DNA from: Acinetobacter qingfengensis
Lineage (GTDB): Bacteria > Pseudomonadota > Gammaproteobacteria > Pseudomonadales > Moraxellaceae
Assembly (NCBI RefSeq): GCF_008693185.1
Contig: NZ_VXKN01000001.1
Span: forward strand, 434,001-498,000
Length of the DNA stretch: 64,000 nucleotides
Direction of reading: 5' to 3'
Under the pieces are notes generated by a model. It was given only the letters and a program-made list of their open reading frames with translations. It was not told where the DNA came from and did no database searches. The stretch's first letter is position 1; every line of letters begins with the position of its first letter. A program made the position numbers and the translations under genes. Below are positions 5,314-10,769 of this stretch, in pieces.

Positions 5314-5652
5314 CTAATCTTGATGATAAAGCTTAAAAACGGTTTCTAATAACTTCAATAAATTTTCATCAGTAATACGATAAAAAATCTGTTTACCATC
5401 CCTGCGAGTTTCTACCAACTTTGAATTACGTAATACGGTAAGTTGCTGTGATAACGTAGGCTGATGAATATCAGTTAATTTTTCAATGGTTTGCACATTA
5501 AATTCATTACCAATTAACATACACAGAATTTTCATTCTATCTGGATTTGATAGGACTTTAAGTCGATCAGTAACCAAATTAATTTGATCAATCGTGATAG
5601 ATGATTCTGAAACAGCCTGAAGATTTTCCAATGGGAAACGCTCCTTAATCAT
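5314..5652 (-). CDS. ArsR/SmtB family repressor, BigR/SqrR-like
   Basis: 112-residue winged-helix regulator. The recognition region IHQPTLSQQLTVLR and the following ETRRDGKQIFYRI are very close to BigR, SqrR and YgaV, which sense sulfane sulfur or persulfides through a pair of cysteines. The first sensing cysteine is present (C44 in ILCMLIGNE), but the second, expected near the C-terminus, is absent: the region reads VFKLYHQD, with His where Cys is expected. No sulfide quinone reductase or persulfide dioxygenase gene is adjacent. The target genes are unknown; an AT-rich dyad-like stretch just upstream (5655-5690) could be an autoregulatory site. Family assignment is firm, the inducer is not. 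Confidence 0.8.
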   Translation of the reverse strand: MIKERFPLENLQAVSESSITIDQINLVTDRLKVLSNPDRMKILCMLIGNEFNVQTIEKLTDIHQPTLSQQLTVLRNSKLVETRRDGKQIFYRITDENLLKLLETVFKLYHQD

Positions 5653-6299
5653 GGGGTATATAATATATAAAAAAATATAATAAATTACAAGAAAACACCG
5701 GAATAATCCCGATTCAGCTTATCCTCATAAAAATTGCAATATGAGTTTAAACTTGTATTGTGCTAGCTAGACATAGTGATATTGTATGGTTAAAAATCAC
5801 TTTATGTAATGCTGGCCTAATGACTTTAATGGACACTCAAGGTTGAATTAAAGCGGCATTCTTGGCAAAAAATATTATATTTTTAATTTTATCTTATAAA
5901 TAGCATTTTTCTGTATTTTTCAGTAACAAAAGAGATTGTGGGACTAAAATTTCATCATTTGATTGAAATTGTTAATAAATCGTATTTCTGTATATTTTTA
6001 AAAAAAAAGAAATGATCAATTTCTAGCTTGTAATTTAGAATAAAAATGTTGTGCTAATTGGCAAAAATGTACAACAAATTAGTTTAAATCACAAAGGTTA
6101 GAAAAAATAATAGGTATGTTGTGAAATTTATTTTTTACATATAAAAACGACATCTTCTTGTTAAAAATTTGCTATAGCCTGATATCAAATAATATTTAAA
6201 AAATATTTTAATGATTAAAAAATAGGTGATACATCATAATATTACAATTTAGCATATTATGTTTATTGTCGAGTATCTATCAACAATATACTGATTGAA
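5653..6299. other. long AT-rich intergenic region, no gene found
   Basis: About 650 bp of very AT-rich DNA between the divergent ArsR gene and the DUF2946 transcript. I find no convincing open reading frame, tRNA or terminator. It includes an A9 run at 6000-6008 and several short A/T tracts. It may hold promoters for both flanking genes, or decayed coding sequence, but nothing definite can be read. Confidence 0.5.
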
Positions 6300-6349: not shown

Positions 6350-6537
6350 TAGCTTTCCAAATTTTATTTTACTTCTGCACCATGGCTTGCCATTATTTCT
6401 GAGCAAAATTTTGAATATTGTTAAACAATAGTAACAACTAAAAAACTTTTGCGTTTTATACTGGTTTGGACAATGTTTATTTGCAATCATTTTAAAAGTT
6501 GACTATCTTGTGTCTGCTATTTTATTTGATATTGTTC

Positions 6538-6939
6538 ATGATTCGGTTTGGTATTTTATTGGGGATTCTTGCAGTTCTATTACAGAATATGGTGTTCTGG
6601 CAAGCTTTATTACCTAAAAAAATGTACCAAAATCAAGTTTGTATCGAAATTATACATGCAATGGATCATTCAGTAGTACCATCATCACATCACCATTTAG
6701 CATTACAGCAATCTAGCCTTGAACATCATGTGAAAATCGACAGTACTATGGACTGTCACTTTTGCCAATTGTTTCATTCTAGTTTGGCAATATCTATTTC
6801 ATCTCCACAATTAATTGAAATTAGAACATTGATGAGGATCATTTACCTGACTATCTCATGGTATATCTTCTTTTATCTGCAACGTCTATTTCTTTGTCCT
6901 CAAGGACGTGGTCCACCTGTATCGCCTGTTTTTGTTTAA
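6538..6939 (+). CDS. DUF2946 family protein, possible copper-responsive leader ORF
   Basis: About 133 residues from the ATG at 6538; an in-frame TTG at 6499 would add 13 hydrophobic residues, and neither start has a strong ribosome site. It has an N-terminal membrane helix, a His-rich middle (SSHHHL, LEHHV), a Cys pair CHFC (codons 6754-6765) and the C-terminal motif GRGPP (6904-6918), the signature of DUF2946. In Bordetella a DUF2946 ORF upstream of a TonB-dependent receptor, called CruR, acts as a copper-responsive upstream ORF whose CXXC motif lets copper control the receptor. The same architecture appears here, 53 bp before the receptor gene. The regulatory role is inferred from that parallel. 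It could alternatively be a membrane copper-binding protein in its own right. Confidence 0.7.
   Translation: MIRFGILLGILAVLLQNMVFWQALLPKKMYQNQVCIEIIHAMDHSVVPSSHHHLALQQSSLEHHVKIDSTMDCHFCQLFHSSLAISISSPQLIEIRTLMRIIYLTISWYIFFYLQRLFLCPQGRGPPVSPVFV
6896..6914 (+). promoter_or_regulatory. overlapping alternative hairpins at the end of the DUF2946 ORF
   Basis: The sequence GTCC-TCAA-GGAC-GTG-GTCC offers two exclusive 4-bp pairings: GGAC (6904-6907) can pair with GTCC upstream (6896-6899) or downstream (6911-6914). It sits exactly over the Gly-Arg-Gly-Pro codons. A second hairpin, GTTGC-TTTT-GCAAC (6949-6962), lies between the ORF and the receptor. Short stems, so structure is uncertain. Confidence 0.35.
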
Positions 6940-6992
6940 AAATTGTTGGTTGCTTTTGCAACTTAAATCTTAATCAATGACAGAGTACGAAT

Positions 6993-9095
6993 ATGTCTAA
7001 ATTTTTATTGCATCCACTTACGTGGAGTCTTGCACTGATCCAAATTTCAATAACAGTATATGCCGAACAAAACAATACTGATGCTGTGCAGGAGATTGAG
7101 CAATTGCCAACATTGGTTGTCAAAGCTGAAAAACAAAATGAAAAATTTAATTCATCACAGGCAATAACACAGTTTCAACATAATTTGCTTGATGTCCCTT
7201 TTAATAAATCCCACTTATCCGTAACTGAGCTTGAAAATTATCATATAAAAAATATCAGTGATGCACTGTCCATGGTGAGTGGCGTGTTTTATCAGGACAG
7301 TTACGGTGGTGGTGGCTGGGATAATTATTCTTTTCGTGGTTTCAGTACTGATCCGAATATGGGAACCAGTAATTTACGTAACGGTTTAAGTACAATTCCC
7401 GGTATTCATGTCCCAAGGGATATGGTTAATGTTGAAGCAGTTGATTTTTTGAAAGGACCGATGGCGGCAATGTATGGTCAAGGGGCGATTGGTGGTGTAC
7501 TTCATATCAGCACTAAACAACCTGAATGGGAAACCACTCGCCGGCTTAATCTTGAAGCGGGGACAAATGACCAATACCGTGCAGCACTGGACAGCACAGG
7601 TGCAATAAATGATCAGATAGCTTATCGTTTGGCTACATCTTATGAAAATAATCATAGCTTTCGAAATTATGTCACCAATCAGCACTATTTTATTGCGCCA
7701 CAACTGGTATGGAAAATTTCTGAACAAACCCAACTAAATCTGGAGAGTGAAATTGGGCAATACCAGTACGTTTTTGATCGTGGAATTCCCATGTCAAATG
7801 CTGGCAAAATATTGACTGATAAAAAGACCTTTCTGGGCGAGCCGAATGATGGTGATGTCAAAGTAAATGAGCAGATGTATCAGTTACGTTTAAACCATCA
7901 ATTGAATGAGAATTGGGACAATACTTCAGCCATTACTTATGCTCAGGGTCAGCGTGAAGGTACATCAACAGAAATTGCATCAATTCATGCTGATCTCGCC
8001 AATCGTTTCCGTCGTTATCGTAAATTTAACACCGAAACGGCCCAGTTTCAGTCTATTTTACGGGGACAATTTAATACTGGTACAATTGCACATGAATTTG
8101 TTGCTAATGTTGAAGCAAGTCATTATGTTATTAAGCAAATTCAATATCGTAATGCTTCTGGTATTAACATGCCTATCAGTTTATCTTCACCTGTGTATGG
8201 CAATATTTTACCTTTATCCAGATTAACCAAACACTCAAAGGAAACACAAAATAATCTTGCTTTGAATATACAGGATCAGATTTTTCTAAATTCAAAATGG
8301 AATATTTTATTTGGCGGTCGAATAGATTATATGCAGCAGAAAATTTATGATGATAAATCTGCAATTTCAGATCAAAAAACTTATACGCCATTTAGCCCAA
8401 GAATTGGTCTGAATTATCAACCGACCTCTGCTTTATCTTTTTATAGCAACTGGGGTAAAGCTTTTGAAATGAATACTGGCTTAAAAGAGAGTACTGGTAA
8501 TTTATTTGATCCAGAAACAACCCAGAGTTGGGAGATCGGTGGAAAATATCAATATGGTATGCAGAACTGGTTGAGTTTGACTTATTTTGATATGCGTAAA
8601 CAGCATTTGTTGACAGAAGGTGTTTTTGATAGTTATGTTGATAATGGTGAAGTTAAAAGTCAAGGACTTGAGTTGAACTGGCAACATCAATTTTTTGATG
8701 CTTTAACCTTATCTGCAAATTATAGCTATACTGATGCGAAAGTGATTAAAAGCGAAACAGAACGCTCAGGTGCAAGATTAAAAAATATTCCCAAACATGC
8801 AGCAAATTTAAGTGGTGAATATACTTTTAATCTTTTTGGATATGCATCAGGATTAACCAGTAATGTAAATTATTATGCTCAAAGAAGTGCGAATTATAAA
8901 GATAATGGCACAACTTTACCTTCTTTTCTGCTATTAAATTTAGGTGCATATACTCAGTTGACACCCATGCTTAAAGTACAGCTTAATATACATAATGTTT
9001 TTGACCGTGATTATTATGTTGCAAGTTATACCAATTACTGGATTATGCCGGGCGAGCCGTTAAAAGCAACTGTGAGTCTAGTTTTTAATTTCTAA
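6993..9095 (+). CDS. TonB-dependent siderophore-type receptor
   Basis: 700-residue outer-membrane receptor. A signal peptide (about 1-24, cleaved after VYA) precedes a TonB-box-like stretch (LPTLVVKAE), a plug domain with DALSMVSGVFYQDSYGGG and FLKGPMAAMYGQGAIGGV, and a 22-strand barrel ending in the terminal aromatic VFNF required for assembly by BAM. The plug matches the TonB-siderophore receptor class; the ligand could be a ferric siderophore or a copper chelate, and sequence does not decide. It lies directly downstream of the DUF2946 ORF and probably shares its transcript. The ribosome-binding site is weak, which fits translational coupling or leader control. A 13-bp inverted repeat follows the stop. 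Confidence 0.85.
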   Translation: MSKFLLHPLTWSLALIQISITVYAEQNNTDAVQEIEQLPTLVVKAEKQNEKFNSSQAITQFQHNLLDVPFNKSHLSVTELENYHIKNISDALSMVSGVFYQDSYGGGGWDNYSFRGFSTDPNMGTSNLRNGLSTIPGIHVPRDMVNVEAVDFLKGPMAAMYGQGAIGGVLHISTKQPEWETTRRLNLEAGTNDQYRAALDSTGAINDQIAYRLATSYENNHSFRNYVTNQHYFIAPQLVWKISEQTQLNLESEIGQYQYVFDRGIPMSNAGKILTDKKTFLGEPNDGDVKVNEQMYQLRLNHQLNENWDNTSAITYAQGQREGTSTEIASIHADLANRFRRYRKFNTETAQFQSILRGQFNTGTIAHEFVANVEASHYVIKQIQYRNASGINMPISLSSPVYGNILPLSRLTKHSKETQNNLALNIQDQIFLNSKWNILFGGRIDYMQQKIYDDKSAISDQKTYTPFSPRIGLNYQPTSALSFYSNWGKAFEMNTGLKESTGNLFDPETTQSWEIGGKYQYGMQNWLSLTYFDMRKQHLLTEGVFDSYVDNGEVKSQGLELNWQHQFFDALTLSANYSYTDAKVIKSETERSGARLKNIPKHAANLSGEYTFNLFGYASGLTSNVNYYAQRSANYKDNGTTLPSFLLLNLGAYTQLTPMLKVQLNIHNVFDRDYYVASYTNYWIMPGEPLKATVSLVFNF

Positions 9096-9482: not shown

Positions 9483-10769
9483 TTACAGTGCAACGCCACC
9501 AGTACCAAAAGCCTCACTATGAATTTGATCTTGTGGAATACCAAGTGCTAACAATGTTTGATTTTGATGTTGCATGAATGGAATAGGGCCACATAGATAA
9601 TAATCAGCATCTTTAGGTAAAAGATTTACTGGTACCTTGGTCAAATCCAAACGCCCCAATTGTTGATAATCTTCACGGGAAATCTTACTGTTGTCAGCAA
9701 TCTGTTCATAAGCGACAAACACATTTAAATGATCGTGATGTTGACTCAGTGCCTTGACTTCCTTACGCATGGCATGTACTTCTGGATTACGTGCTGCATG
9801 AATAAAGCTGATCTGATTTTTATGTGCATTATGATGTGTAAATGGTGCTTTGATTTTATCCCAAAATGAAGCTTTTTGGTTTGGATCAGTATTTTCGGTA
9901 ATTAACTGATTTAACATCGCAATCATTGGGGTTAAACCAATACCCGCACTGATCAGTACATTATTTTTTTCCGGATTGATCAGAAAAAAGTTTCCAGTAG
10001 GTGCACTGACTTCAATCACATCGCCTTCGTTGATATGGTTGTGTAGGGTAGAGGATACATAACCTGGATCCTGATTTTCTACATGTGCATCTTCACGTTT
10101 AACAGAAATCCGCAGATATTCACCAGATGGGCTATCAGACAGACTATATTGACGTGGCTGTTTGATACCAAGCTCAGGTACAGTAACTCGAACAGTAATA
10201 TATTGACCTGGTTTATATTGCGGAAGTGACTGTTTATTCTGCGGGATCAAATAGAATGAGGTAATTTCGTCATTTTCCTTCACTTTACGGCTAACAACAA
10301 AATTTCTCCAGCCTAACCAGCTACCTTTGGTTTTTTCATGTTCATCATAAATGGCTTTTTCTGTTGCAATGAATAGGTCAGCAAGTTGTTTGTAGGCAGC
10401 TCCCCATGCAGCAATCAGGTCATCTTCCATGGAAATGTTTAGCACTTCACTGATGGAATGTAGCAGGTTTTCACCCACGATATCATAATCTGGTGCTTGG
10501 ATATTCAAACTGACGTGTTTATGGCAAATCAATTCAACTACAGGTGCGAGAACGGAAGGATCGTCAATATTTTCTGCATAAGCAAGCACCGCACCAGCTA
10601 AAGCTTTGGCTTGTGCACCACTGCGTTGATGTCCCATGTTAAAGGTTTCTTTTAGCTGGGGATTATTACCTAGCATACGTTTATAGAAATAATCAGTTAA
10701 TGCAACACCATTTTCTTTCAAAACAGGGACTGTTGCTTTAACGAGATCTTTTTGCTCAGGACTTAGCAT
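9483..10769 (-). CDS. hmp: flavohaemoglobin, nitric oxide dioxygenase
   Basis: 428-residue cytoplasmic enzyme that oxidises NO to nitrate using O2 and NAD(P)H. The globin domain (1-140) has the proximal haem ligand H85 in ICHKHVS, Y29 and Q53 in the distal pocket. The FAD domain contains RQYSLSDSP and the NAD domain GIGLTPM and YLCGPIPFM. It is about 30 residues longer than the E. coli protein because of a Lys/His-rich insertion (TENTDPNQKASFWDKIKAP region, roughly 300-325) between the FAD- and NAD-domain elements. An NsrR-like operator overlaps its promoter, so NO-induced expression is likely. Monocistronic, transcribed away from acuR. Confidence 0.95.
   Translation of the reverse strand: MLSPEQKDLVKATVPVLKENGVALTDYFYKRMLGNNPQLKETFNMGHQRSGAQAKALAGAVLAYAENIDDPSVLAPVVELICHKHVSLNIQAPDYDIVGENLLHSISEVLNISMEDDLIAAWGAAYKQLADLFIATEKAIYDEHEKTKGSWLGWRNFVVSRKVKENDEITSFYLIPQNKQSLPQYKPGQYITVRVTVPELGIKQPRQYSLSDSPSGEYLRISVKREDAHVENQDPGYVSSTLHNHINEGDVIEVSAPTGNFFLINPEKNNVLISAGIGLTPMIAMLNQLITENTDPNQKASFWDKIKAPFTHHNAHKNQISFIHAARNPEVHAMRKEVKALSQHHDHLNVFVAYEQIADNSKISREDYQQLGRLDLTKVPVNLLPKDADYYLCGPIPFMQHQNQTLLALGIPQDQIHSEAFGTGGVAL

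Follow-up and report, generated by a model that had tools for sequence, protein, structure and literature searches.

In the SecM-secA pair, expression of the downstream gene is controlled by SD occlusion. The arrest peptides of this kind with RAPP or RGPP share with the leader described here a C-terminal RxPP-like core and a next gene that is controlled by ribosome position, but export or localisation is what SecM and its Sec/YidC relatives sense, whereas the CXXC motif found here suggests a metal (parts of PMC12992588 and PMC10987492). The closest described system is CruR (bp2923) of Bordetella pertussis, a DUF2946 copper uORF for which the available part of PMC9426467 describes a Rho mechanism and an arrest that copper relieves. 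In vitro, CruR arrests at RAPP, and in other contexts the arrest was most stable with RGPP (PMC12992588, in part); its CXXC and RAPP motifs are 45 residues apart, a spacing that the family keeps to within one or two residues, according to the same partial sources. CutF of Rhodobacter capsulatus, which belongs to the same broad family, is also a leader with a metal motif; its intergenic region is short, and a stem that a stalled ribosome should open shields the SD of the next gene. As far as the accessible text of PMC9973294 goes, the gene controlled is a copper oxidase turned on by high copper, and the stem is described as intergenic, whereas at our locus one strand consists of the last codons of the uORF itself. 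The class of CruR/DUF2946 copper uORFs is already known, and what is new here is a variant with a predicted helix between the leader tail and the SD of the receptor gene.

The window, that is, the whole stretch of 64,000 nucleotides analysed, carries a DUF2946/CruR-like leader ORF of 133 aa on the forward strand (6538..6939, from an ATG; with the alternative TTG start at 6499 it would be 146 aa long). It matches PF11162 (DUF2946) with 24.7 bits in the ATG form and 25.3 bits in the TTG form, barely exceeding the curated cut-off of 23.7, and has orthologues within the genus. Judging from dN/dS values across six ortholog pairs, which range over 0.10-0.22 (0.14 with the closest relative) and point to purifying selection, the uORF is a real protein-coding gene, beyond chance. 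Its N-terminus appears hydrophobic from the sequence. The CHFC motif (codons 73-76, 6754..6765, forward strand), a presumed Cu(I) site, is invariant among 13 aligned close orthologues, as are the R and PP of the presumed arrest motif RGPP (codons 124-127, 6907..6918, forward strand), where the P-site codon would be 6913-6915 and the A-site codon 6916-6918 if the position from CruR toeprinting (PMC12992588, in part) is transferred. The two motifs are separated by 47 residues as against 45 in CruR, a near-identical spacing, and the leader likewise stands first before a TonB-dependent receptor gene. It differs from CruR in having RGPP instead of RAPP, a tail of six residues after this motif instead of three, and an intergenic region of 53 nt instead of the 162 given for B. 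pertussis in the available part of PMC9426467. The sequence-only reading had described a DUF2946 ORF with CXXC and C-terminal RGPP 53 bp before a TonB receptor, and coordinates, motifs and profile matches agree with this; the CruR-like nature of the leader is well supported by family, CXXC, RxPP, spacing, purifying selection, the position before a receptor and a second DUF2946 leader before OprC.

The downstream gene (6993..9095, forward strand) encodes a TonB-dependent receptor of 700 aa with PF00593 and PF07715 domains and a match to TIGR01783 (TonB-dependent siderophore receptor) of 284 bits, where the cut-off is 223.5. Among PDB chains, its nearest relatives are entries labelled CntO and FoxA at E values of ~1e-45 (best E 7.9e-46), together with FetA and FhuA entries. 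CrtA of Bordetella (9RVQ) follows at an E value of 4.4e-9 (38.7 bits), ranking below 29 other distinct chains. Loci of the CrtA/BfrG family have a PepSY_TM gene after the receptor in more than 75% of cases, and the receptors have six conserved binding residues including His358; here the receptor lies outside this family, and no PepSY_TM gene lies beside the pair in the 64-kb window, the nearest homologue of the genome being elsewhere (L074). By these sequence comparisons the receptor is FoxA/FhuA-like, and the orthology to BfrG/CrtA implied by the sequence-only reading was rejected.

A receptor of this type could import an iron siderophore, in which case the leader would sense another metal or an export state instead of copper. 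The nearest PDB entries and the TIGR01783 match favour such a reading, as do the PepSY_TM genes that 16 of 30 loci carry near the ORF-receptor pair, in varying orientations, and that could be FoxB-like reductases; for some CutF-like proteins the metal served seems to be nickel or cobalt (PMC9973294, in part). Against it, the best Fur-like site scored within the range of mononucleotide shuffles in all 15 upstream regions, leading us to reject Fur control, and a paralogous leader of the same genome heads OprC; we regard this alternative as unlikely.

Across 175 genomes of the genus, we found 30 receptor orthologues (at least 56% identity), and in 29 of these loci a DUF2946 ORF heads the presumed transcription unit, as judged by position; the pairing expected by the earlier reading, whose absence in relatives was to count against it, is therefore conserved. 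In four of the 29 loci, the ORF and the receptor are separated by another receptor gene, which is intact or reduced to a short piece, and a gene with an NlpE domain follows the receptor in 12 of 30. The gap between CXXC and RxPP in the 29 pairs is 47 or 48 residues, the latter being three off the 45 of CruR, and 26 of the 29 have RAPP instead of RGPP. An orthologous locus is present in the type strain of Acinetobacter baylyi. Outside the genus, 390 sampled genomes of the order held no receptor orthologue at E ≤ 1e-150 beyond the window's own, and 369 sampled genomes of the class yielded distant relatives (28-31% identity) in six genomes. One of these six (L079) has a CXXC/RAPP ORF immediately upstream of the receptor, which Pfam did not call as DUF2946 at E ≤ 0.01.

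A predicted helix joins the end of the uORF to the start region of the receptor gene. In the MFE structure, its 5′ strand (6918..6939, forward strand) comprises the last base of the second Pro codon, the tail codons and the stop codon, and its 3′ strand (6970..6989, forward strand), which pairs with the tail, includes the weak SD region ACAGAG (6980-6985). The pairs are 6918-6922 with 6985-6989, 6926-6930 with 6979-6983, 6932-6934 with 6975-6977 and 6936-6939 with 6970-6973, and at eight of the nine bases from -14 to -6 the probability of pairing with the tail is 0.75-1.00, the ninth being unpaired. The tail is six codons long in 13 loci, the window locus included, and pairing between SD region and tail is predicted in every one of them; these loci fall into four clades with four different sets of sequences (alignments A1 and A3 hold 13 and 12 window-type orthologues, respectively); the discovery of the helix and its first test used the same 13 sequences. 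The tail:SD duplex has a mean energy of -11.6 kcal/mol when each tail meets its own SD, compared with -6.2 kcal/mol across clades, and the helix exceeds intergenic shuffles in six of six representatives (p ≤ 0.033). With unrelated SDs swapped in, mean pairing is still 0.33 and p ≤ 0.05 is reached by only two of six representatives; the window locus alone gives p = 0.095 against swapped SDs and 0.054 against synonymous recoding. Thus, the modelled pairing is in part generic. The helix is missing from L044 and L045, two close orthologues whose tail has three codons.

The window also contains an internal intergenic hairpin in the MFE structure (GGTTGC-TTTT-GCAACT, 6948..6963, forward strand), and small intergenic hairpins of other sequence are predicted in most orthologues; as a signal by itself this hairpin was rejected, beating shuffles (p ≤ 0.05) in only one of 14 cases. 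The sequence-only reading had instead proposed a switch between exclusive GTCC/GGAC pairings. These pairings do exist in the window sequence, but they are not conserved: of the four pairs in either hairpin, two never vary because their bases belong to Gly and Pro codons, and the remaining pairs show no covariation beyond shuffles. This switch was rejected, and from the structure predictions the tail:SD helix is the better candidate. Between positions 6100 and 7150, we found no intrinsic terminator between the genes, and the nine promoter-like sites compare with 7.2 in shuffles, so that no promoter is informative. The sole Rfam match was sub-threshold, on the other strand, with an E value of 0.9.

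We modelled how a ribosome arrested at RGPP would affect the receptor start by masking the bases it would cover. Masking lowered the cost of opening the start site in the window from 9.4 to 5.4 kcal/mol, that is, by 4.0, and from 9.3 to 5.4 kcal/mol on average over the 13 loci. A drop of at least 2.5 kcal/mol occurred in 11 of the 13 leader loci and in none of 37 ordinary gene pairs, where the mean drop was 0.18 kcal/mol; the smallest gains were those of L032 (1.2 kcal/mol) and of the A. baylyi locus, L039 (1.7 kcal/mol). The mean unpaired probability of the SD in the window rose only from 0.19 to 0.25, and it decreased under arrest in L034, L036, L039 and L041. In these models, a helix over the SD of the next gene would be disrupted by a ribosome at the arrest site, as expected for SD occlusion, with mixed strength. 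Because a terminating ribosome lowers the opening cost equally (13-locus mean 5.3 versus 5.4 kcal/mol), the same geometry would suit plain translational coupling, in which the helix is melted by every ribosome that translates the whole uORF and regulated arrest is absent. Such coupling leaves the invariant CHFC and RxPP at a fixed spacing unexplained, and we give it little credence.

The second DUF2946 leader of the genome precedes OprC, a copper receptor (TIGR01778). A pair of uORF and oprC is mentioned for Pseudomonas aeruginosa in the available part of PMC9426467; in Acinetobacter, the leader is a paralogue that lies in the same genome and shares the predicted tail:SD helix, and the gene downstream is OprC and not a FoxA-like receptor. 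We collected the paralogous ORF before oprC at 61 distinct loci, where the tail:SD arrangement recurs with covariation. Because 60 leader loci were hand-picked among the matches listed, the sample is not random; the leader finder retained solely ORFs with CXXC and a C-terminal RxPP and chose start codons by SD score, and the resulting table has 88 rows, of which four repeat a locus (84 distinct). Tail:SD pairing in 28 oprC representatives was 0.56 versus 0.10 in shuffled sequences. The covariation score was 0.140 compared with 0.078 in shuffles, none of 500 reaching it; RNAalifold on the oprC alignment gave just two pairs and no covariation. That alignment (A2) holds 54 of 63 oprC rows. The nine excluded rows, one of them a duplicate, have extended tails or intergenic regions that are long or dissimilar; three oprC rows with intergenic regions of 168-243 nt, whose start is probably wrong, were kept in the shuffle test and left out of the masking and SD-swap tests. 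Among 26 OprC loci outside the genus, for which some OprC starts may be wrong, 16 lacked an RxPP ORF within 500 nt, one had an overlapping ORF and nine were scored; CXXC is missing in three of the nine (L165, a 77-aa ORF, L187 and L188). Leaders before cydA within the genus have intergenic regions of 145-273 nt and are mostly without the helix, which was significant in four of 12 representatives.

These cydA leaders favour a CruR mechanism as in Bordetella, by which an arrest at RGPP would shield the transcript from Rho and copper would let the ribosome leave so that Rho terminates before the receptor, the helix being irrelevant. The shared protein family, motifs and spacing and the Rho mechanism published for CruR (PMC9426467, in part) also argue for this. 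However, the short intergenic region and the recurrence of the tail:SD helix across clades speak against it, and the Rho signal is unexceptional, the best C-over-G stretch of the uORF lying at the 71st percentile of 51 window ORFs, which is a weak proxy; a special C-over-G signal is absent here, and a predicted SD-sequestering helix is present, in both respects a difference from CruR. We consider a Rho output improbable at this locus.

The protein-coding leader, the conserved motifs and their spacing, the coupling of the genes, the recurring helix and its geometry under a ribosome are supported computationally. The PepSY_TM and NlpE-domain neighbours and the lack of a Fur-like signal beyond shuffles also count in favour of a copper leader. 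From these we infer, with slightly better than even confidence, a CruR-type copper uORF that acts through SD occlusion similar to SecM and CutF and turns the receptor on in copper scarcity; this reading would include arrest, copper as the ligand, the direction of the response and SD occlusion instead of Rho. In scarce copper, a ribosome translating the uORF would arrest at RGPP and cover the codons just 3′ of it, which would otherwise pair with the SD region of the receptor. Because the arrested ribosome would occupy this strand of the helix, the SD would be freed and the receptor made. Copper bound to the nascent CHFC would relieve the arrest, the ribosome would finish and depart, the helix would close and receptor translation would drop.

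The opposite sign, as in CutF, would have metal binding strengthen the arrest, so that abundant metal would open the SD and lead to receptor synthesis. The SD-sequestering design and the short intergenic region resemble cutF-cutO (PMC9973294, in part), and nanosilver raised oprC ~18-fold in A. baumannii (PMC12647597, in part); silver would be expected to mimic Cu(I), so this rise counts against induction by low copper. Conversely, an uptake receptor downstream would make sense under scarcity, the CXXC and RxPP motifs and their spacing match CruR, whose arrest is relieved by copper in the partial account cited above, and sulfide, likely a copper trap, increased the transcripts of both oprC and cydAB in A. 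baumannii (PMC7315123, in part), a finding that is no more than suggestive. We hold the CutF-like sign to be quite improbable. The odds that we assign to the alternatives overlap with one another and with those of the preferred reading.

More tentatively, and somewhat short of an even chance, CruR-type leaders in Acinetobacter and perhaps in other Pseudomonadales may unite an arrest motif with anti-SD codons at or just after it, so that the arrested ribosome of a copper-starved cell unlocks the FoxA-like receptor and OprC independently of Rho, and leaders with longer intergenic regions may govern the copper-free cytochrome bd oxidase. If the preferred reading is true, the copper leader peptide family acts through two or more outputs, with Rho serving in Bordetella and SD occlusion at this locus. 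The transformable laboratory species Acinetobacter baylyi would then be a test bed for the reading of copper by a nascent chain, and copper uptake through two receptors would be under one type of translational control in a genus that includes clinical species.

Both ORFs that the sequence-only reading had proposed, a DUF2946 leader at 6538-6939 and a TonB-dependent receptor at 6993-9095 with a spacing of 53 bp, were recovered at these coordinates. Because the leader scored just above the PF11162 cut-off of 23.7 bits (24.7 from the ATG and 25.3 from an upstream TTG start), its assignment to DUF2946 is right but marginal by that model alone. Within the leader, codons 73-76 encode CHFC and codons 124-127 encode RGPP, after which come VSPVFV and the stop codon. 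Receptor orthologues (identity of at least 56%) were present in 30 of the 175 genomes of the genus, and we inspected all 30 loci (that of the window plus two sets of 14 and 15). The expectation that the pair persists in relatives was borne out, with a DUF2946 ORF heading the unit in 29 of the 30; the sole exception was L066, in genome G003, where a three-frame translation of the upstream 1 kb showed none. Leader relatives (E ≤ 0.001) occur in at least 171 of the 175 genomes.

Fifteen of the 29 leaders are of the window type (CHFC; 51 residues from the first Cys to the Arg), and the remaining 14 carry C-x-[FY]-C with 52 residues. Four of the 29 loci have an intervening receptor gene, which is full-length in L052 and L054 and a short ORF only in L053 (2219-3028) and L056 (2232-3026). 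The leader dN/dS was 0.10-0.22 (six pairs); on this sequence evidence, the leader ORF is a real gene and the pair is conserved. Among the named relatives are A. puyangensis (closest), A. soli, A. baylyi, A. calcoaceticus, A. brisouii, A. nectaris and A. pollinis. In A. seifertii (L101, 3001-3105), only the first 35 residues of the leader are matched, at 66% identity, with the receptor absent from the 6.1 kb examined, and this match looks like a remnant.

When the leader ends were folded, the tail codons following RGPP paired with the Shine-Dalgarno (SD) region of the receptor. In the window, the 5′ strand of this tail:SD helix lies at 6918-6939 and the 3′ strand at 6970-6989; within the ACAGAG hexamer, five bases pair with the tail. 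The pairing was found in all 13 orthologous loci with a six-codon tail, the window included, through four different sequence sets (CTGTT:GACAG; CCTGT with ACAG and a flanking stretch; AACTTTGTTT:AAACAGAGTT; GCCTTCAAC:GTTGAAAGGC). Own duplexes averaged -11.6 kcal/mol (13 loci) versus -6.2 for cross-clade combinations (122 pairs). For four clade representatives, the Fisher p was 1.1 × 10−4 with shuffled SD stretches and 0.013 with synonymous recoding. When the intergenic region was shuffled, pairing probability averaged 0.83 in the real sequences and 0.08 in the shuffled ones, with p ≤ 0.033 in 6/6 representatives (lowest attainable p, 0.016); for the other leader type, four of its six representatives were significant, and the signal was absent in L044 and L045, which have a three-codon tail. 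In a harder control, with 41 SDs from unrelated genes swapped in, the values were 0.83 versus 0.33, with p ≤ 0.05 in 2/6 representatives and a combined Fisher value of 0.0011 from six representatives that are not independent. Because unrelated SDs still reached 0.33, the pairing is partly a by-product, which probably stems from the likeness of Pro codons to the anti-SD. Among 37 ordinary neighbouring gene pairs, median pairing was 0.02 and two attained the lowest orthologue value.

A helix ahead of oprC was first seen in a few loci before the larger leader set was assembled. This set, chosen from the matches listed and limited to ORFs with CXXC and a C-terminal RxPP, comprises 88 scored rows (84 distinct loci), with OprC (66), CydA (15) or other receptors (7) downstream. 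Among the OprC rows, the 63 (61 distinct) whose intergenic region spans no more than 130 nt all showed, in the minimum free energy structure, pairing between tail and start region. Pairing was 0.56 versus 0.10 after shuffling (28 representatives; p ≤ 0.05 in 16; Fisher 1.5 × 10−12) and 0.61 versus 0.21 with swapped SDs (27 representatives; p ≤ 0.05 in 11; Fisher 2.4 × 10−9), both combined p-values being too small because the loci are related. Across 52 distinct rows, 84.5% of helix cells were paired, and the covariation score was 0.140 versus 0.078 for shuffled alignments (0/500 shuffles) and at most 0.086 when slid. Nine scored pairs from outside the genus gave 0.56 versus 0.13 (p ≤ 0.05 in 4/9). 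In the CydA leaders (intergenic 145-273 nt), the helix was mostly absent, being significant in 4/12 representatives.

In the oprC leaders (e.g. L020), an intergenic TTTATG pairs with GCATAA and often doubles as a putative two-codon start-stop ORF (ATG TTT TAA etc.) directly before the oprC SD, as judged by eye from the alignment. DUF2946 RAPP leaders precede cydA, encoding cytochrome bd oxidase, at 14 distinct loci (L024/L051, one locus under two labels; L053, L055, L056, L065, L115, L117, L145, L147, L148, L154, L158, L160 and L161), those of L053, L055, L056 and L065 being divergent from the receptor pair. This arrangement puts a copper-free oxidase behind a copper-type leader, and our search of partly accessible literature returned no publication on it. 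In two genomes of the class, receptors (31% identical) lie 5′ of ABC transporter genes, preceded in L077 by an RSPP ORF without CXXC, with a MerC gene present, and in L079 by a CXXC/RAPP ORF, with an ABC-2 permease present.

A ribosome reaches about 15 nt downstream. With the P/A-site position on RGPP borrowed from the available account of CruR toeprinting (PMC12992588), the codon presumed to occupy the P site has the 5′-strand core of the helix 5-19 nt 3′ of its first base and extra pairs up to +26, and in this model a ribosome arrested at RGPP should cover the first part of the strand. Masking by the arrested ribosome cut the modelled start-site opening cost for the window from 9.4 to 5.4 kcal/mol and, averaged over the 13 loci, from 9.3 to 5.4 kcal/mol; the drop was at least 2.5 in 11 of these, falling below in L032 (1.2) and L039 (1.7, A. 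baylyi). In the oprC rows (n = 63), costs fell from 9.7 to 6.8 kcal/mol, 55 rows dropping by more than 0.5; in the cydA rows (n = 15) they fell from 8.9 to 7.9, with a drop in 6. Ordinary gene pairs (n = 37) showed a mean drop of 0.18, none reaching 2.5. Counting against SD opening, the mean unpaired probability of the window SD rose only from 0.19 to 0.25 on arrest; the smallness of this rise is due in part to the model letting bases behind the ribosome pair with the SD. The same probability decreased in L034, L036, L039 and L041 and increased in 41 of the 63 oprC rows.

The output of arrest would most simply be exposure of the receptor SD rather than a CruR-like output; SecM, the arrest-peptide leader of secA, has this same output. 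In its partly available description, CutF of Rhodobacter capsulatus should likewise expose an SD (PMC9973294), unlike CruR, the DUF2946 copper uORF of Bordetella pertussis. The available account of CruR describes arrest at RxPP in low copper and relief by copper (PMC9426467); the leader ribosome would likewise arrest at RxPP when copper is low and copper would relieve it. No strong C-over-G or terminator signal was found by two tests, both weak, and Rho may act too, once the receptor gene is untranslated.

The receptor matches TIGR01783, and its nearest relatives are entries labelled FoxA, CntO, FetA (enantio-pyochelin) and FhuA. Because of this likeness, and because PepSY_TM proteins can be siderophore reductases according to the available part of one report (PMC12914433), the receptor may instead be an iron-siderophore importer. 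By clustering with one scanned member per cluster, a PepSY_TM gene lies near the pair in 16 of the 30 loci and an NlpE-domain gene follows the receptor in 12; neither adjoins the window pair. The same report, as available, places a PepSY_TM gene after crtA, the CruR-controlled receptor gene, in Bordetella (PMC12914433). A second DUF2946 ORF in the genome precedes OprC, a TIGR01778 copper receptor. Judged from gene content, the neighbours point to copper, short of proof. At L048 (5034-7706, outside the window), this second leader ends in RAPP plus a tail of five residues, lies 108 nt before OprC, and shares the tail:SD helix of the window pair, here with a value of 0.86. Also in the window are an ArsR-family regulator that lies ahead of the window's own DUF2946 leader and is oriented away from it (5314-5652, minus strand; top model BigR, 102.8 bits, under the 155-bit cut-off) and an ORF convergent with the receptor that by eye reads as a flavohaemoglobin (9483-10769, minus strand).

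DUF2946 leaders upstream of TonB receptors are described as widespread in the available parts of three publications (PMC9426467, PMC12992588, PMC12914433). Among papers on Acinetobacter and DUF2946, titles and abstract openings indicated no study of the leader. The nearest published system to an RxPP leader with SD concealment is, from its available text, CutF (PMC9973294). Because our search of partly accessible literature found no publication on a CruR-type RxPP leader that conceals the SD of the next gene, we consider the leader class to be already known and its predicted SD-hiding CruR-type form to be new.
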